From positions 1 to 42,997 of IMG/VR virus record IMGVR_UViG_3300037189_026311: DNA of 42,997 bases; one strand, 5' to 3'. The position numbers were made by a program, and so were the translations under genes. Source of the stretch: a virus. The notes under the pieces were generated by a model, which worked only from the letters and a program-made list of their open reading frames with translations, did not search any database and had not been told where the DNA came from. Shown here in pieces: positions 4,694 to 21,746 of this stretch (positions are counted from its first letter, which is position 1; every line of letters starts with the position of its first letter).

Positions 4694-7207
4694 TTAAAGA
4701 ATACGCGCAGCTTCAGTTGCCAAAGCGCTTCTCTCGCCTTGAGTCAAAGTGACATGCCCAGCTAACTCAGAGTCCTTAAACTTATCAATGATATAAGTTA
4801 AACCATTGTTCATGGCATCTAAATGCTTGTTGTCAATTTGCTCAATATCACCAGTGCAAATGATTTTGGTTCCTTCACCAGCACGAGTTAAGATCGTTTT
4901 GACTTCTTCTCGCGTTAAGTTTTGAATTTCATCTATTAGAATAATTGAATCTGGAATGTTTCTTCCGCGAATAAAAGTAATAGCGTTCATTTGAATCCGA
5001 TCTTTTCTCTGAACCGCTTCGAAATTATTTCTCCACTTATCACCATTAGACATCGTGAATAAAAATTCAAAACTATCCATAATAGATTGAAACCATGGAG
5101 ACAGCTTTTCAGATTCTGTATTATGAGTTACTATAAAATTATCAGTTAAATATAAATGTTCGGGATTATCAACTCTAATACACTGAACTTCTTTTTCCCC
5201 AACATATTCAATATTTTTAATTGCAACACGATGCATAAAAGCACAACTATGTCTAGAGGCTTTTCTGCTAATGAAAAATGGATTTATATGAGCCGGCAAA
5301 CTAACAGTAAACTCATAAGATATTTTTCGTTTAATGATAGGTCTGCCATTAATAATGCTCTCTTCTCCAATACGATTTCTTTCGCTAATCGTTGCTCGTC
5401 CCCCAAGAGAACGAACCAATTCTATAATGTCTTCAGCTAACCGTTTAGATGTTGTACAATACGTAGCTTCGCCTCTTTTTTTAATGGTACCATCAGTATC
5501 CATTAAACCTTGAAGTAAGGCAATTCTATTTTCAATAGAATTGTATTTATAATCATCAGGAATAAATTTTGTCCAAGCTTTGGTCCCACTTAATCCAAGT
5601 TTATAAAGCTCTTCTTTAATCGGATTTTGCCATCTATTTTTTAGAGGCATAAATTCAAATTTTAAATTATTTATGCTTGGACCTTCATTGCAATAAAAAT
5701 TCAAACTTTTTCTATTTATTGAAGGAAAAGCTTTACTAGCTAAGCCAATAGAGTTATAAATAACGCTTGAATTATCTATCAAATTAGTCACTTTAACAGG
5801 TCTTGCCGTTTTATTATTGTAAAGTTTTGATCTAAAAGAGTAAGCTATATTTTTTCCACTATTTGTAAGCGAGCAATTTAATTGTTCAACTTCTTTTGAA
5901 ACTCTACCAATAAGTTCTAAATCGGTATTAGATATATTAATATAATCAGATATTGACCCATCGCCTAATATAGCTCCTAAAACATAAGGTGGAATTGCAA
6001 CATCTTTTTTAGAATAATGAACAGCTTCATTTCTTGGTAAGTAATGATTTATTTTACCATCTTTATTTTTTAAAGATTCCATTATTTCTTTTGTCGATTT
6101 GACTGAACCAGGCTTATTTCTTTTTTTATTTTCAAAAGTCTGAGTATACCACAAATGATCTTCGCAGCATTCTGTAGAAGTTCCGTCTGTAGTTGTTACC
6201 TTATATACGGATTTTGTTCCCTTTGGAAAAATTCCAGTTACCTGAGTAGGCTTACCATCCCTAGAAATAACTAGATCGCCCGTCTTTAGAGACCCCATTG
6301 TGGTCCATCCATCAGGAGTAACTATCTTAGCATCTAGCGGCTGTGGTCCAGGCAAAAATCCTATTTCCTGACCAACCGACTCCATTGGCTTATATATAAC
6401 TAACTTCTCATACTGTTCACGATCAATAACCAACTCAATCGCGCTCGCCAAGGCAATCAATGATTTCCCGGTTCCAGCTGACCCGACCAATGTAACCAGC
6501 GCTACTGACGGATCCAATATTAAATCAATCGCAGCACGCTGTTCTTTGTTTCGAGCAGACAAGCCCCATGGAAAATTCTTTCCAACTACTTTAACAACTC
6601 CATCCTCATTCAATCTTCCCATTGAAACTATATTTTCATCTTCATCCGTAAAAACAACGAACTCATTAGGGTGCAATTCTAAATTGTAAGAACGAGGATC
6701 AATTGTTTTTTGATTTAATAAATCAATTCCAGCCTCCGGATCAACAACCGTCTTCATTCCCGAATATAGCTCGTCTGATGTTCCCGAAGTCTTTTCATGA
6801 CCAACAGCAACCATTCCAACCGCTTTAGCGCGGACTCTAAGATTAATATCATTGCTAACGAAAATAACTTCTGCATCGCCTGCTAAGAAAATAGCATTGG
6901 CGCAAGATAAAATCCGAGTGTCTCCATATAATTTATCCCCAAAAGTATTTGGGTAGCTATTAGAATCTATTTTAACAGTTAAACCATTAACTTCAATTCC
7001 AGAAGTAATATCGCCTTGGTTAGATAATTCATCGAGGAGTCTAATGCAGACTCGTGCATTTTTTCCGACTTCTCCTTGAGCTTTTTTTAATTTATCCAAC
7101 TCTTCTAAGACAGCAATTGGAAGAATGACTTCGGAATCTTTATCTAAACTCTTAAAGATGGCAGGATCGGTGATCAATGCAGAAGTATCTAATATGTATT
7201 TTTTCAT
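4694..7207 (-). CDS. phoH: PIN-PhoH ATPase/nuclease with an intein
   Basis: The 837-residue product is a PIN-PhoH fusion (PhoH2/YlaK type) interrupted by an intein; without it the protein is 428 residues. PhoH proteins are ATPases tied to RNA unwinding and phosphate stress, and the PIN partner is a ribonuclease fold. The PIN domain (about 1-130) shows acidic residues Asp7 (LDTSAL), Glu36, Asp96 (GDTRIL) and Asp120 (SNDINLR). The PhoH domain has Walker A GSAGTGKS (242-249) and Walker B ILIDE (Asp759, Glu760). The intein splits the conserved FLPG-TxxEK motif between Gly287 and Thr697. phoH is common in phages of aquatic bacteria, and a role in RNA turnover is known only in part. Confidence 0.93.
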   Translation of the reverse strand: MKKYILDTSALITDPAIFKSLDKDSEVILPIAVLEELDKLKKAQGEVGKNARVCIRLLDELSNQGDITSGIEVNGLTVKIDSNSYPNTFGDKLYGDTRILSCANAIFLAGDAEVIFVSNDINLRVRAKAVGMVAVGHEKTSGTSDELYSGMKTVVDPEAGIDLLNQKTIDPRSYNLELHPNEFVVFTDEDENIVSMGRLNEDGVVKVVGKNFPWGLSARNKEQRAAIDLILDPSVALVTLVGSAGTGKSLIALASAIELVIDREQYEKLVIYKPMESVGQEIGFLPGPQPLDAKIVTPDGWTTMGSLKTGDLVISRDGKPTQVTGIFPKGTKSVYKVTTTDGTSTECCEDHLWYTQTFENKKRNKPGSVKSTKEIMESLKNKDGKINHYLPRNEAVHYSKKDVAIPPYVLGAILGDGSISDYINISNTDLELIGRVSKEVEQLNCSLTNSGKNIAYSFRSKLYNNKTARPVKVTNLIDNSSVIYNSIGLASKAFPSINRKSLNFYCNEGPSINNLKFEFMPLKNRWQNPIKEELYKLGLSGTKAWTKFIPDDYKYNSIENRIALLQGLMDTDGTIKKRGEATYCTTSKRLAEDIIELVRSLGGRATISERNRIGEESIINGRPIIKRKISYEFTVSLPAHINPFFISRKASRHSCAFMHRVAIKNIEYVGEKEVQCIRVDNPEHLYLTDNFIVTHNTESEKLSPWFQSIMDSFEFLFTMSNGDKWRNNFEAVQRKDRIQMNAITFIRGRNIPDSIILIDEIQNLTREEVKTILTRAGEGTKIICTGDIEQIDNKHLDAMNNGLTYIIDKFKDSELAGHVTLTQGERSALATEAARIL
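5120..6346 (-). mobile_element. Class 3-type intein with LAGLIDADG endonuclease, inside PhoH
   Basis: This 409-residue in-frame insert (protein residues 288-696) starts PQPLDAKIVTPDGW and ends IVTHN before Thr697. It has no Cys, Ser or Ala at position 1, so the usual first acyl shift is impossible. It does have the class 3 triplet: Trp353 two residues after block-B His351 (EDHLW), Cys676 in block F (EVQCIRVD) and Thr694 just before the terminal His-Asn. In that class the block-F Cys makes the branched intermediate. Two LAGLIDADG-type motifs are present: YVLGAILGDG (408-417) and LLQGLMDTDG (564-573), the second followed by a usual core, so the homing endonuclease looks intact. Boundaries rest on the uninterrupted FLPG-TESEKL motif. 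Confidence 0.9.
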
Positions 7208-7693: not shown

Positions 7694-10417
7694 TTATCCT
7701 TCACAAGCCTTACACTCGTTTTCTCCACGAGATGCCATATCGCCCTTGAGAACGCCTTCAGATCGTAAGTAATATAGTGTTTTCAAGCCGCTCTTCCAAG
7801 CCGCAATGTGAACGTCATGAATGTACTTTGCGCTAGAATTGGATGCAAAGAAGAGGTTTAGAGATTGAGCTTGATCAATCCATTTTTGCCGTTGGGCGCC
7901 GAGTTTAATTAATACATGTTGATTAATTTCCCGAGCCGTTAAGAAAACTTCTTTTTCTAAATCAGATAAGAATTTCAAGTGTTGGACTCCACCACTCTGT
8001 TCATTAATAGATTGCCAAACTTCAATCGTATTGAATCCTTTGGACTCCAAAAGTCTTTCAAGCGTTGGATTTTTTCTAATAAAAGTTCCCTTAGCAGATT
8101 TAATGGCGACAATATTAGCCGCAATAGGTTCAATTCCGGCAGAATAACCACCAGAGATGGTAGAGTTAGAGACCGTTGGAGCGCAAGCGATTCGATGAGT
8201 ATTTCGAATTCCGAAACCTTTACACCATTCTGGCTCCCCTAGTTCCTGAGCTAGGACTTTGCTTTCCTCAAGAGATTTTTTATCAATACTTTTAAAGATT
8301 TCAGCATTCAACTGCATTACTTCAAAAGAATCCATTGGAAGCATTTGTTCCTGAAGAAGAGTGTGCCAGCCAAGAACTCCAATTCCAATAGCTCGCCCTT
8401 TAATAGCAGAACGGCGTGCCGCCTCCATCCCCGTCATATTTTCTGTCTTTTGAATATATTCGGACAGAACTGCATCTAAAAATCTAACTGCCAAATTAAC
8501 AGTATCAGTATCTTTCCATTCATCCCAACGAACAAGATTTAATGAAGATAAACAACAAACAAAAGTATGATCTGGATCTGTATATAAGGTTATCTCGCTA
8601 TTGCCAGTCATCAACCCATTAGCTAAAGCAAATTTTCCAGTAGAAGGAACTGTTGGACAATAAACCGGATGAACTCCCTCTAATTTTTCTATTTTAACTA
8701 TTTTTCTAAAAGTAGTTAGAAATCTATTAGGCTTTTTACAATTTTCAAAATTAAGCCTCTTGCATGAGAGTTCATCTTTTAATTTTACAGTATCATTAGC
8801 TGAAATAGTTATTCTATATTTTAGATTAGATTTATCCATGCTATAAGTGATAGCACATGTTTTTAACATGCTTCCTAAATCTAAAATAAATTGTTCATAT
8901 ATACTTGTAATTTGAATTGTATTTTTACATACAGTCCCATCTGCGTCTAATAGACCTGACAGGAATTTTATTTTTGATTTCCTGTTCCAATTACGAACTT
9001 CATCTGGCAAAGATTTTTTATATTCTCTTGACCATGGATGAAGTGATTTTCGAAGAGACAAACCTTTTAATCGTTTAAAAATTTGTTTCCCATAAGATCC
9101 TTTTGAGCCTGTGTTATCTATAATGTCACTAAATGCAACTTTGATGTTGGCATTTGTATTAGCTTTGCTTGGATTAATTTCTAAAACGGAAGAAATGATT
9201 TCTTCTTCGCACATAAATTTTGTAAAATGTAAATTTAATAATGTATTCGTTTCGCTGCTTGTTCCATCACCAATCAAGAACCCTTTGGCATAGGCAGCTT
9301 CAGCAGCTATATTCCCATGCGATTCTTGTTTATGAAATTCAACATAATTTCCTATTTCAAGATCTTTTGTAAGAGTTTCGTGAAATTTATTATTCCTGAT
9401 ATCAGTGTAATTTTTTGAAATGAACCATCTATGTTTATCATTAGAATCAACAAAAGATCCATCTGCCAAATGAATTCTCGTTAAAGAATCATAGCCACGG
9501 AGTTTAAAACTAGAATTTTCAACCCATTTTTTACCATCATAAATTTCAACAGTCTGATCTATTAAAGAACTGATTTTTTTAGGACCATTTTTAGTAGCAA
9601 TTAGTGTGTCTCCAGAAAGACAACAAATATTACTTGTGGATACTTTTAAATTATTTTGTTTATAACATTCAGGATTATTTTTATTAACGTTATCAGAAAA
9701 GAATATATAAGGCTCTCCGGTCTCAACTCTTTCAGTTAAAATTGATTCCCAAATTTTACGTTTATTTTTATCGCCTGCCAGCATAGATTCCATCCATGCA
9801 TCTGTAATAGTAACTCCAATATTAATATTTAAACATCGACGATTCATATCGCCAGTTTGCCTTCGAATATTAAGAAACTCTTCTATGTCTCCATGCTCTA
9901 CTGGAAGGTAGATCGCTGCGGCGCCTTTACGTTGACTTCCTTGTGAAACTGCCACAATAGAACTATCCATTACCTTAGCCCACGGTACTACGCCTTCAGC
10001 CTTACCATTACCTTTAATATCTTTACCTCTTGATCTTAAATCTCCAAAGAATATTCCAACACCAGCTCCATTTTTAGAAAGAATGGCTAATTCATGATTT
10101 TTCATAAAAATAGAGTCAATAGAATCCTGTAAATGTAGACTATTACACGACACTGGGAGCGCTCTGTCTGAACCTAAATTTGCCGCAATAGGAGATGCTA
10201 AGCAAAGCCAATTATTCCATAATATATGGAAAAATTTTTCCTCATATTTAGCTTCGGGAGAATAATAGCTTGCTGCTGCTTTAGCAACTCTTCTATACAT
10301 ACCCTTGGGAGTTTCATTAGGAAGAAGATATCCGCCACATAATGTAGTATATCCTTCATCTTTCATCCATTCAGGAGCTTCACCATTAATTTTAAGTTCT
10401 TCTAATTTGTCAGTCAT
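7694..10417 (-). CDS. nrdA: Class I ribonucleotide reductase large subunit with an intein
   Basis: The 907-residue product is the alpha subunit of class I ribonucleotide reductase, which makes deoxynucleotides for phage DNA. Without its intein it has 566 residues, short because it lacks the ATP-cone. Key residues are visible: Cys91 (PVSCNSL) and Cys621 or Cys622 (VCCLSSLNL) as the redox pair, Asn263, Cys265 and Glu608 as the radical-site triad (E. coli Asn437/Cys439/Glu441), and the tyrosine pair in LYYLR (882-883) for radical transfer. CKACEG at the C-terminus supplies the shuttle cysteines. The intein lies directly after Cys265, so unspliced enzyme must be dead. The small subunit is encoded just upstream, giving a complete NrdAB pair. 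Confidence 0.95.
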   Translation of the reverse strand: MTDKLEELKINGEAPEWMKDEGYTTLCGGYLLPNETPKGMYRRVAKAAASYYSPEAKYEEKFFHILWNNWLCLASPIAANLGSDRALPVSCNSLHLQDSIDSIFMKNHELAILSKNGAGVGIFFGDLRSRGKDIKGNGKAEGVVPWAKVMDSSIVAVSQGSQRKGAAAIYLPVEHGDIEEFLNIRRQTGDMNRRCLNINIGVTITDAWMESMLAGDKNKRKIWESILTERVETGEPYIFFSDNVNKNNPECYKQNNLKVSTSNICCLSGDTLIATKNGPKKISSLIDQTVEIYDGKKWVENSSFKLRGYDSLTRIHLADGSFVDSNDKHRWFISKNYTDIRNNKFHETLTKDLEIGNYVEFHKQESHGNIAAEAAYAKGFLIGDGTSSETNTLLNLHFTKFMCEEEIISSVLEINPSKANTNANIKVAFSDIIDNTGSKGSYGKQIFKRLKGLSLRKSLHPWSREYKKSLPDEVRNWNRKSKIKFLSGLLDADGTVCKNTIQITSIYEQFILDLGSMLKTCAITYSMDKSNLKYRITISANDTVKLKDELSCKRLNFENCKKPNRFLTTFRKIVKIEKLEGVHPVYCPTVPSTGKFALANGLMTGNSEITLYTDPDHTFVCCLSSLNLVRWDEWKDTDTVNLAVRFLDAVLSEYIQKTENMTGMEAARRSAIKGRAIGIGVLGWHTLLQEQMLPMDSFEVMQLNAEIFKSIDKKSLEESKVLAQELGEPEWCKGFGIRNTHRIACAPTVSNSTISGGYSAGIEPIAANIVAIKSAKGTFIRKNPTLERLLESKGFNTIEVWQSINEQSGGVQHLKFLSDLEKEVFLTAREINQHVLIKLGAQRQKWIDQAQSLNLFFASNSSAKYIHDVHIAAWKSGLKTLYYLRSEGVLKGDMASRGENECKACEG
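8600..9622 (-). mobile_element. Intein with LAGLIDADG endonuclease, inside NrdA
   Basis: This 341-residue insert (protein residues 266-606) begins CLSGDTLIATKNG and ends ALANGLMTGN before Ser607. Cys266 can serve as the class 1 nucleophile. The penultimate residue is Gly605, not His; this ending occurs in other phage inteins as far as I recall. It also has Trp331 two residues after block-B His329, Cys587 in block F (VYCPTVPS) and Thr604, the same places as the class 3 triplet of the PhoH intein. LAGLIDADG-type motifs are AKGFLIGDG (377-385) and FLSGLLDADG (485-494). Boundaries come from the NIC-SEI active-site motif that splicing would restore. Confidence 0.9.
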
Positions 10418-18288: not shown

Positions 18289-19620
18289 TTACTTACGTCG
18301 ATCAACAACAACATTCTTCGTCAATTTGCCGAATGCTGAGGACTTCGTCGCAATCTTATCCTTAATCTTCTGAACCGCTGAAACCGTTTCATTCGTCCCA
18401 GTATCCAATGACAAGGTCAAATTTCGACCATCATCTTTAACCTTGGACCGTTGCTGAAGATCTTTCGTCTCTTCTTTTAACTGCTCAACCCGAGAAACTG
18501 GAAGTCCCATTCCAGTAAAGAATGAATAAACCTTAACAACGTTCTCTGGACTATCAACCGTATAGACTCCCTTGAAAACTCCCTTGGGATTTCCACATTG
18601 GTCATTAATTATACTCATAGCATAATTGACGCTAGAGCTTGGAATATCTTTCCAAACATTAGCATTTGCAGTAATAATGACTCCAACATACTTGGACTGC
18701 TTGAGATCGAATCCGCTTGCTAAGAGATTTGAATTAAGATTATCAATCACGGCTTCTGCAATCGCCGTATCTTCTTTATAATTAGAAATAGTCATCTCTC
18801 CGTAGACAGATAAACCATCCCCATCAATAAACAACTTAGCGAATTCTGAAGAGTCTAATGGCTTAACACTAGACGGAGCGGCAGACAAGGTATTGAAAAT
18901 ATCAATCGGTCCAACGATTGCTTTATTGGCAATATCATAAAAATCCATCTGACTAACATTATGATAGATAGCTTCAATCTTAGCATTGTCAACGCAAATA
19001 AGATTAGAAACCTTTTTGCTTTTAGTTAAAGATGCTAGCTTTGAAAGCGTTTCTAATGCGTTGCTCTTCGTCTGAGAGTCTTCCGTATCCATTGGAAGAA
19101 CGGTAATAACAACCAAAGGCTTTCCAGTTTCTGCTAGAATATCTACCATTGTCTCGCAAGAACCTGCGCCTGAACCACCGCCTAAAGATAGGCATAGAAC
19201 ATTGACTTGGCTCTCAGAGAGCTTATCATCAACCAATTGCTTAATCTCTTCTCGATGAGATTCTGCGGCATCTCGACCTATTTCTAGTTCTTTAGCAGCG
19301 CCGCCTAATCCATGCTGGAGAAAAAGTTTATTAGAATCTGGAACATTAATGAATTTAAGGTCCTGCATGGCAGTGTTAACGACAACTGCTTCATAGCCTA
19401 ATGAATATAAAGCTTGAGCTAAATTACCACCTGCTTGCCCGGAGCCTAGGACCCCTAGGACAAGACTTCTATCTTTTTTCGCAACGATTTTTGCAGCCAT
19501 TTTTTGTTCCATATTTTGTTTGTTTTGATTTTTTGCTTTAAGGGCGGCTAATTTGCCATCATCTAAATCATCAATGATTTCTTCTGGAACGCCCATTTCT
19601 GTTGTTGATTTTGCCGTCAT
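18289..19620 (-). CDS. Tubulin/FtsZ-family GTPase
   Basis: The 443-residue product has the marks of the tubulin/FtsZ superfamily, GTP-driven filament proteins. The first glycine-rich loop is VLGSGQAGGN (57-66), the tubulin signature is LGGGSGAGS (146-154), and the T7 synergy loop is QMDFYD (224-229), where Asp226 and Asp229 match the FtsZ NLDFAD acids needed for GTP hydrolysis across subunits. An N-terminal tail of about 50 residues is charged and probably disordered, and the C-terminus is basic (VVVDRRK) with no FtsZ-type C-terminal peptide. Length falls between PhuZ (about 320) and TubZ (about 480). It may position or segregate phage DNA; the subfamily cannot be told by eye. Confidence 0.88.
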   Translation of the reverse strand: MTAKSTTEMGVPEEIIDDLDDGKLAALKAKNQNKQNMEQKMAAKIVAKKDRSLVLGVLGSGQAGGNLAQALYSLGYEAVVVNTAMQDLKFINVPDSNKLFLQHGLGGAAKELEIGRDAAESHREEIKQLVDDKLSESQVNVLCLSLGGGSGAGSCETMVDILAETGKPLVVITVLPMDTEDSQTKSNALETLSKLASLTKSKKVSNLICVDNAKIEAIYHNVSQMDFYDIANKAIVGPIDIFNTLSAAPSSVKPLDSSEFAKLFIDGDGLSVYGEMTISNYKEDTAIAEAVIDNLNSNLLASGFDLKQSKYVGVIITANANVWKDIPSSSVNYAMSIINDQCGNPKGVFKGVYTVDSPENVVKVYSFFTGMGLPVSRVEQLKEETKDLQQRSKVKDDGRNLTLSLDTGTNETVSAVQKIKDKIATKSSAFGKLTKNVVVDRRK

Positions 19621-19646: not shown

Positions 19647-21746
19647 TTATTTTAAATAGTATTGATTATTATTATACCAATTGACACACATTTCCAATCC
19701 TTCCGGAAGCTTTATCTCCGGAGCCCAACCAAGCTTCTTTAATTTAGAAGCGTCAATTGAATATCTAAAATCATGCGCATTGCCTCTTGGATCTTTAATA
19801 AAATCGATTAAATCATGACCTCGTCCCATAATATTGCAAATCTTTTGAATTATTTCAATATTAGTACATTCTTGATTTGCCGAAATGTTATATATTTCGT
19901 TTGGCTTTCCATCTGTAATAACCTTCATTAATCCAGCACAGTTATCTGTAACATAGGTCCAATCTCGAATTTGAAGCCCTTGCCCATAAACCGGAATCTT
20001 TTGATTATTCAAAATGCTTTTAATTGTTTTCGGCAAAAGCTTTTCTGCCGTTTGCCTTGGACCATAATTATTAGAAGAACGAGTAATGTTGTAATTCAAT
20101 CCAAAGGAAGTCCCAGCTGCCTGAACAACCAATTCACTTGCCGCTTTACTAGCAGCATATGGGTTTCGTGGATTGATCGGGGATTCCTCGGTCCAGGATG
20201 GCTCAGAATCGCTTTTCAATTGACCGTATGACTCGTCCGTATTTCCTGAAAAAGCGCTAATTCCATTTCTAATAACAAGAAAATTTTTATTATCTTTAAC
20301 TTTTAAACACCATATTTTACCATTATAATTAATTATATTTGCTTTAGGAAATAATGGGCTAAGTTTATTAGAAAAATGAATTTGCCAAGCCTTAAAATTT
20401 TGATGAATAATTCTTCCATTGATAGAAGCGTTTGGATTATGCCCTTGCTCATTAAATCTTGCATGAAATCCTAACATTGTTGCCAAGTAACAATACTGAT
20501 CTCTTAACTTGAGAGAGCATGTTGTCAAAGCGCCTTTACCTCTAATATTATAACCATGCCCATCAGAATCATGGATTCCCATTAATAAATTAAATAAATT
20601 ATCATATCCATAATCAAACATCCATTCTGGAATAAATTTATTTTCAGCATATTTCCCAAAAGTATCAAAGAATTTAAGCCATTTCTCTGAAGAAAAATAA
20701 ATGTGTTCGCCAGATTTATTTTTTTCAGCATGAAAATTAATTTTTAATTTAGTCAAAGCCTTTTCTAATTTAACTCTGCATTTATCATTTTCTGGAACAT
20801 CAAAAAAAATACGATAGTTATGCGTAACTATAAATTTAGGGGCATTTGGATCTGTATTTTTTGATGATATAATTCTTCCAGTTTTAGGATCCCGACATTT
20901 TTTTATAAAATCAGCTCTAGTATATCCACTTTTATTTTCACGTATTTTTTCTTGATAAGCAGTAAAACCATCGCCAATAAAAGCGCCACAAACATAAAAT
21001 AAAGCATTAGAGTCTACTTTCCCTAAACCTGGGATATTTATATATTTTTTATATGCTCTATTAATAGAGCCTTTTGGCAAATAGCTTTTTCCTTTGACAT
21101 CTGACATTTCTTCTGAAGTCGTCCAATGTAATTTATTATTTTGTTCATAAATGTATCTATGATTTGGCGTAGTTAAAAAATCGACTCTATTAGATTTAAA
21201 ATGATACATATCGCCAGAATAATCTTGAACTATTATTTTTTCAATTTCTTTTTCTTCAATTTCTTTCGTTTCAGGATTAATTGAAAGAACTAAGTCCCCT
21301 TCTTTTAATTCTTGATAAGATTTTATTCCGCTTTTAGTTACCGCTTTCGTTTGTTCATCATAACATGAGATATGAACAAACTTCTCCACGCCCCATTTAA
21401 CGGCAGCGTTGACCAAAGTTTGAGTCCCAACAACATTATTTTGAATGAACTTAACAGTATCTTTAAGAGAATCATCAACATGACTCTCGGCTGCCCCATG
21501 AAGAACAATATCAGGGCGCTCATATTCAAATATGACATCTAAAAAATGAGAATCGCAAATGTCACCAATATAAAACTGATGATTCTTATTTTGATAAATA
21601 TTACCTAAAACAGATGTCTTAGCCATCTTGTCAATACTAACGAATTTATAATTGTGAGTTCCAGATTGGATTTGGTCATGAATCGCCTTTCTAACAAAAT
21701 TAGAAAGAATAAATCCCGCTGTCCCTGTTATAAGTATCTTCTTCAT
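19647..21746 (-). CDS. rmlB: NDP-glucose 4,6-dehydratase (RmlB-like) with an intein
   Basis: The 699-residue product is a short-chain dehydrogenase of the RmlB type, 324 residues after splicing. Known RmlB turns dTDP-glucose into dTDP-4-keto-6-deoxyglucose, the first committed step to rhamnose and other deoxysugars. The NAD-binding loop is GTAGFILS (8-15), where the third Gly of GxxGxxG is Leu. The catalytic STDE motif is split between Ser127 and Thr503 (TDESYG), and the catalytic YAASK follows (Tyr530, Lys534). HGAAESHVDDS and SNNYGPRQ fit dTDP-glucose dehydratases. It is the last gene of the sugar block and overlaps a glycosyltransferase gene by four bases. Exact substrate not shown. Confidence 0.9.
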   Translation of the reverse strand: MKKILITGTAGFILSNFVRKAIHDQIQSGTHNYKFVSIDKMAKTSVLGNIYQNKNHQFYIGDICDSHFLDVIFEYERPDIVLHGAAESHVDDSLKDTVKFIQNNVVGTQTLVNAAVKWGVEKFVHISCYDEQTKAVTKSGIKSYQELKEGDLVLSINPETKEIEEKEIEKIIVQDYSGDMYHFKSNRVDFLTTPNHRYIYEQNNKLHWTTSEEMSDVKGKSYLPKGSINRAYKKYINIPGLGKVDSNALFYVCGAFIGDGFTAYQEKIRENKSGYTRADFIKKCRDPKTGRIISSKNTDPNAPKFIVTHNYRIFFDVPENDKCRVKLEKALTKLKINFHAEKNKSGEHIYFSSEKWLKFFDTFGKYAENKFIPEWMFDYGYDNLFNLLMGIHDSDGHGYNIRGKGALTTCSLKLRDQYCYLATMLGFHARFNEQGHNPNASINGRIIHQNFKAWQIHFSNKLSPLFPKANIINYNGKIWCLKVKDNKNFLVIRNGISAFSGNTDESYGQLKSDSEPSWTEESPINPRNPYAASKAASELVVQAAGTSFGLNYNITRSSNNYGPRQTAEKLLPKTIKSILNNQKIPVYGQGLQIRDWTYVTDNCAGLMKVITDGKPNEIYNISANQECTNIEIIQKICNIMGRGHDLIDFIKDPRGNAHDFRYSIDASKLKKLGWAPEIKLPEGLEMCVNWYNNNQYYLK
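20241..21365 (-). mobile_element. Intein with LAGLIDADG endonuclease, inside the RmlB-like enzyme
   Basis: This 375-residue insert (protein residues 128-502) starts CYDEQTKAVTKSG and ends ISAFSGN before Thr503. Cys128 is the expected first nucleophile, Thr503 the acceptor. Block B shows LTTPNHRYIY (His196). Block F is KIWCLKVKD with Cys480, and the end is Gly501-Asn502 in place of His-Asn. LAGLIDADG-type motifs are YVCGAFIGDG (251-260) and LLMGIHDSDG (387-396). Removing it restores VHISTDESYG, the catalytic motif of RmlB. Inteins in sugar-nucleotide dehydratases are rare as far as I know. Confidence 0.9.

Follow-up and report, generated by a model that had tools for sequence, protein, structure and literature searches.

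A 42,997-nucleotide stretch of viral DNA (here called the window) contains an open reading frame in which an RmlB-like sugar-nucleotide dehydratase is interrupted within its catalytic motif. Is the interruption a genuine intein, and is it peculiar to this phage gene? The features of the precursor are listed below.

19647-21746, minus strand: precursor, RmlB-like sugar-nucleotide 4,6-dehydratase plus intein (699 aa, ATG start)
21366-21746, minus strand: N-extein, residues 1-127, NAD-binding half, ending ...EKFVHIS
20241-21365, minus strand: intein, residues 128-502 (C128-N502), 375 aa, CYDEQTKAV...AFSGN
21327-21365, minus strand: splicing block A with nucleophile Cys1 (C128)
21144-21179, minus strand: splicing block B, TPNH (T193-H196), invariant in the family alignment
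20964-21005, minus strand: first LAGLIDADG motif, YVCGAFIGDGF
20553-20594, minus strand: second LAGLIDADG motif, LLMGIHDSDGHG, including LLMGIHDSDG
20274-20315, minus strand: splicing block F, IWCLKVKDNKNFLV
20241-20270, minus strand: splicing block G, RNGISAFSGN, with terminal Asn502 and a penultimate Gly, not His
19647-20240, minus strand: C-extein, residues 503-699 plus stop, beginning TDESYGQL
20232-20240, minus strand: Thr503-Asp504-Glu505, the +1 residue and dehydratase catalytic motif
20145-20159, minus strand: Tyr530-xxx-Lys534, catalytic pair of the extended SDR fold

Anatomy of the precursor

The precursor frame runs for 699 codons without an internal stop or frameshift, and the insert lies in frame between Ser127 and Thr503. 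Excision in silico joined VHIS to TDESYG as the first-pass annotation had proposed, and its coordinates (20241-21365), length (375 residues) and motifs were exact. The Thr-Asp-Glu motif is catalytic in RmlB, such that Thr503 is both the +1 residue of the intein and a member of the catalytic motif, a double role that had also been claimed correctly. The GC content of the insert was 28% and that of the host exons was 36%.

The Pfam families GDP_Man_Dehyd and Epimerase were matched on both flanks of the insert, and the host catalytic residues T503, D504, E505, Y530 and K534 were all intact. NCBIfam TIGR01181 (dTDP-glucose 4,6-dehydratase) was by far the best family for the joined host, which scored 347.7 bits, below the cut-off of 365.1. 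Moreover, the NAD-binding GxxGxxG motif reads GTAGFIL, with Leu in place of the third Gly; that Gly was kept in every compared relative readable there, and Leu was found in the window protein only. We call the enzyme "RmlB-like" because it misses the TIGR01181 cut-off and lacks the third Gly. Glycosyltransferase genes come after the RmlB-like gene, and thus the enzyme may plausibly help to make a modified sugar used in glycosylation. We also note that a Tubulin/FtsZ-like protein (TubZ-like, PhuZ phrog; 18289-19620, minus strand) adjoins the gene, as in some jumbo phages.

The insert carries the features of a class 1 intein, namely, Cys1, a block B TxxH, terminal Asn502 and Thr503 at position +1. 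Cys128 and the block F Cys (Cys480 in the window) were invariant across the intein family, and both LAGLIDADG motifs keep their acidic residues. A penultimate His is usual in inteins but not universal, and so not defining; the window intein has Gly501 instead. As 20 of 20 inteins in the tree end in Gly-Asn, in hosts that are several different proteins, the penultimate Gly is a trait of the lineage and not a fault of the window intein alone. The hallmarks of class 3 inteins are a block B Trp, a block F Cys, a +1 Thr and no nucleophile at residue 1. Class 3 splicing was ruled out for the window intein because Cys1 is present and block B contains no Trp.

Profile and structure comparisons were consistent with the assignment. 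Pfam Intein_splicing (PF14890) spanned the insert in the precursor ORF, and the insert alone scored 33.6 bits, just below the gathering score of 35.8, which we take as a detector and not as the definition of an intein. All 10 family members matched Intein_splicing at an E value of 0.01 or less (best, 9e-14). An AlphaFold model of the precursor was based on 11 precursors of the family (mean pLDDT, 75.8; pTM, 0.51), and Foldseek matched the flanks to the RmlB structures 1kep and 1keu and the insert to PI-PkoII (E value, 1e-13), PI-SceI and PI-PfuI. The intein profile alone, compared with solved structures, matched PI-PkoII (5e-10) and the MJ0781 intein (3e-6). The insert is thereby predicted to have a Hint fold with a LAGLIDADG endonuclease, a fold common to the solved intein endonucleases PI-PkoII, PI-SceI and PI-PfuI, which differ from the window intein in host and are 11 to 14% identical to it. 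We conclude that the insert is real, a largely standard intein, and that its insertion site is a recurrent one, as documented below.

Two other inteins were observed in the window. A PhoH-like protein (4694-7207, minus strand) contains a 409-residue LAGLIDADG intein at about 5120-6346, with no Cys or Ser at position 1 and with the junctions GFLPG/PQPLDAK...VTHN/TESEK (slashes mark junctions throughout). The PhoH intein resembles class 3 inteins in having a Trp in block B (EDHLW) and a Cys in block F, and its best solved kin are the gp41-1 and mycobacterial DnaB inteins. The ribonucleotide reductase large subunit (7694-10417, minus strand) contains a 341-residue intein of class 1 type at 8600-9622, with the junctions NIC/CLSGDT...MTGN/SEITLY. 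Campylobacter phage vB_CcoM-IBB_35 likewise has inteins in PhoH and NrdA, but no sugar-enzyme intein was reported for it (PMC3322345).

Inteins at the same RmlB site

The C-terminal junction was scanned as a DNA pattern (Asn-Thr-Asp-Glu-Val-Tyr-Gly) against one genome per species, covering 84,980 species. The pattern matched 115 stretches, and the ORFs were then read individually; many matches were unrelated proteins and were discarded on reading. Two sets of RmlB genes were left, and in both the intein falls precisely at the Ser-Thr junction. One set, type B, is of the window's kind and was found in 10 cellular genomes, from several bacterial phyla and two archaeal groups, and in two other phage contigs (L170 and L171). 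The cellular carriers are as follows.

Patescibacteria: L037, L046, L054
Omnitrophica: L051, L074
Diapherotrites: L059
Actinomycetota: L087
NPL-UPA2: L099
Thermoplasmata: L102
Planctomycetota: L112

The ten cellular type B inteins aligned with the window intein over their full length at 39 to 43% identity (E values, 1e-72 to 1e-100), and the two junctions in their RmlB genes were identical. Because a homologue spanning the whole insert occurs at the same junctions in ten independent RmlB genes, the window insert is not a product of chance, and the splice blocks together with these homologues bear out the earlier reading of the insert as an intein in an RmlB-like enzyme. With the two phage examples included, type B inteins are 355 to 376 residues long, are 39 to 46% identical to the window intein and have in common with it the S/TDE site, Cys1, TPNH, two LAGLIDADG motifs and a GN end. 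The type B hosts are mostly bacteria and archaea, whereas the window is from a phage; most type B inteins end in CGN and sit before TDEV, whereas the window has SGN and TDES. Occurrence was sporadic, at 1 to 5 genomes in per-phylum samples of 87 to 380, a count that takes in the genome at the centre of each search.

Some type B genes depart from the common pattern. The C-terminal part of the Planctomycetota RmlB (L112, 3886-5937, minus strand) reads as unrelated near its end, which suggests a frameshift in the metagenome-assembled genome (MAG) or in the gene. The second LAGLIDADG motif is degenerate in L051 (DSDV) and L099 (DSNG), which suggests that the endonucleases of these two inteins have decayed.

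The other set, type A, was found at the identical insertion point in nine further genomes, many of them of hyperthermophilic archaea.

Bacteria (Chloroflexota and Pseudomonadota among the carriers): L013, L022, L024, L070
Archaea (Thermococcaceae, Methanothermococcus, Pyrodictiaceae, Desulfurococcales): L033, L058, L069, L071, L088

Type A inteins begin with Ser1 (SVTGDTP), end in HN and are 505 to 518 residues long, whereas the window intein has Cys1, a GN end and 375 residues. Similarity between type A and the window intein was weak and local and was found mainly in the endonuclease part. As types A and B share the site, the Ser-Thr bond of RmlB has been chosen by two very different intein families. 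The placement at the Ser/Thr-Asp-Glu junction stands as first annotated, and the case is not the singular one it had seemed, as at least 21 other RmlB genes from public genomes or phage contigs hold an intein at the window's exact position.

The host had also been put forward as possibly undescribed. Across 5.39 million open-access papers, no intein was found described in RmlB, dTDP-glucose 4,6-dehydratase or GDP-mannose dehydratase, and three papers mention inteins in passing or in their references (PMC5109656, PMC11467894 and PMC12584671). The RmlB insertion site is likely undocumented in the literature, although the sequences themselves are public. The site itself agrees with reports that inteins favour conserved sites (PMC2814812) and are located near active sites (PMC3359363).

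Phage carriers, the paralogue and the history of the intein

Neighbours read from the sequence indicated that the RmlB intein gene adjoins terminase genes in L170 and has helicase-like and RmlA-like neighbours in L171. The terminase large subunit beside RmlB in L170 (3962-6223, plus strand) is also intein bearing (apparently without Cys/Ser1; block B Trp). An intein-alignment scan of 2.9 million viral contigs returned no phage RmlB inteins beyond those in L170 and L171, and a search of viral contigs for the exact N-TDESYG junction returned the window's own phage only. When 50,697 phage records were searched by tblastn, 249 RmlB relatives were found, none of which covered 80% of the intein-bearing query; the 40 listed relatives span about 963 bases and thus contain no insert. 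Inteins in phage portal, terminase and ribonucleotide reductase genes (L004, L005, L006 and L007) resemble the window intein in general architecture and in the GN end but are 26 to 30% identical to it, reside in other host genes and fall on a separate side of the tree (support, 100/99).

A 239 kb contig also carries the window gene; no difference was seen across the 14,097 bases that were compared, although the contig may not be independent data. The same contig contains a second RmlB-like gene that is free of an intein (L185, 1151-2101, minus strand; G001:C1, about 116650-117600). The paralogue reads VQIN/TDEVYG, with Asn preceding Thr-Asp-Glu, and its DNA agrees with that around the window site at 53 of 90 positions; the paralogue site is possibly immune to the intein's endonuclease. 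The paralogue scored 318.3 bits against TIGR01181, and because it too is under the cut-off, the low score is a trait of the phage clade. Among the proteins compared, the paralogue was the sister of the window host protein (100/99), which suggests a gene duplication with gain or loss of the intein in the phage lineage.

The trees of intein and extein conflicted. The type B RmlB inteins form one clade (96/96), in which the window intein groups with the inteins of other phages, a Planctomycetota MAG and a CPR MAG. A clade uniting the window extein with those of the four carriers whose inteins are nearest to its own was rejected (p-AU, 0.0012), as were sister inteins for L099 and L112 (p-AU, 8e-8), the exteins of which are sisters (99/96), and a single clade for the three Patescibacteria inteins (p-AU, 3e-10); several branches are long, and the groups were picked with the trees already in view, so that no single p value should be relied upon. 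All of the tests nevertheless point in one direction. Because the two trees conflict, the window's intein family has moved independently of the host gene.

Relatives of the intein were also present in other enzymes. Two Omnitrophota genomes carry relatives at the equivalent site of other sugar-nucleotide SDR enzymes, with host proteins assigned by reading the sequence, one in an epimerase-like protein (L180, YCS/C...CGN/TNKIYG) and one in a GDP-mannose dehydratase-like protein (L181, FAG/C...CGN/SSEMFG). A more distant relative resides in an NAD synthetase (NadE) gene (L196, VGYF/CYDEH...CGN/TKYGDGG). The notion of an SDR-specific lineage was dropped because NadE carries a relative, and the lineage is thus not confined to the SDR fold; the SDR inteins alone, as a clade excluding the NadE intein, gave a p-AU of 0.43. 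We give roughly even chances to a history in which one lineage, mainly on the active-site Ser/Thr loop of sugar-nucleotide SDR enzymes, passed between phage, bacterial and archaeal RmlB genes, in part carried by phages, and jumped to the equivalent site of two paralogues, one a GDP-mannose dehydratase-like enzyme and the other an epimerase, while a second lineage, with many hyperthermophilic carriers, converged on the same residue.

Interpretation of the locus

We consider it highly probable that the window encodes a mobile, bifunctional class 1 intein that excises itself from a phage RmlB-like dehydratase and homes. Splicing, endonuclease activity and dehydratase activity are each what we infer from the sequence of the protein. 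Excision would be posttranslational, beginning with an acyl shift at Cys128 and continuing with transfer to Thr503 and cyclisation of Asn502. Ligation of Ser127 to Thr503 would restore the Ser-Thr-Asp-Glu motif, and the dehydratase would be inactive before splicing. Homing would depend on the LAGLIDADG domain, which would cleave rmlB alleles that have no intein at the codons of the conserved motif; the intein would be copied in as the break is repaired. The phage would have acquired the intein from a pool of RmlB inteins that it has in common with other phages, with archaea and with bacteria, those of the CPR type among them.

The insert could instead be a relic, either splicing poorly or residing in a host that is dispensable given the intein-free paralogue, with the gene kept by homing alone. 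The penultimate Gly, the Leu in GxxGxxG, the paralogue in the 239 kb contig and the score under the TIGR01181 cut-off would all suit such a relic, but the frame is open throughout, every splice block and each of the two endonuclease motifs is intact and conserved, the host catalytic residues are retained, and the low score extends to the paralogue. We regard decay of this kind as unlikely. Conditional splicing, for example, redox control through Cys128 and block F Cys480, could alternatively time the synthesis of the phage's modified sugar. Insertion in the catalytic motif would tie activity wholly to splicing, the block F Cys is invariant in the family, and conditional splicing is documented elsewhere, as in the mycobacterial DnaB intein (PMC6195587); the sporadic occurrence and conflicting trees, however, suit a selfish element, and a regulatory intein seems to us very unlikely.

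An assembly chimera or chance fusion of ORFs might be suspected, as the contig is metagenomic and the GC content differs between insert and host. The same junctions were nonetheless met again in no fewer than 12 further genomes or contigs, each independent in origin, as well as in the 239 kb contig with the reservation given above, and because of that recurrence this reading is already refuted and its probability negligible.

With this locus, phage enzymes of nucleotide-sugar metabolism join the range of intein hosts, and one catalytic motif has been chosen independently by two unrelated intein families. Its interest lies in an active-site position that has been colonised repeatedly, and by two intein families, and in the part played by phages in its spread. 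If the explanation is true, RmlB would be a natural test case for why inteins settle at active-site residues, for how an intein may cross between paralogous enzymes, and for whether phages carry inteins from one domain of life to another.
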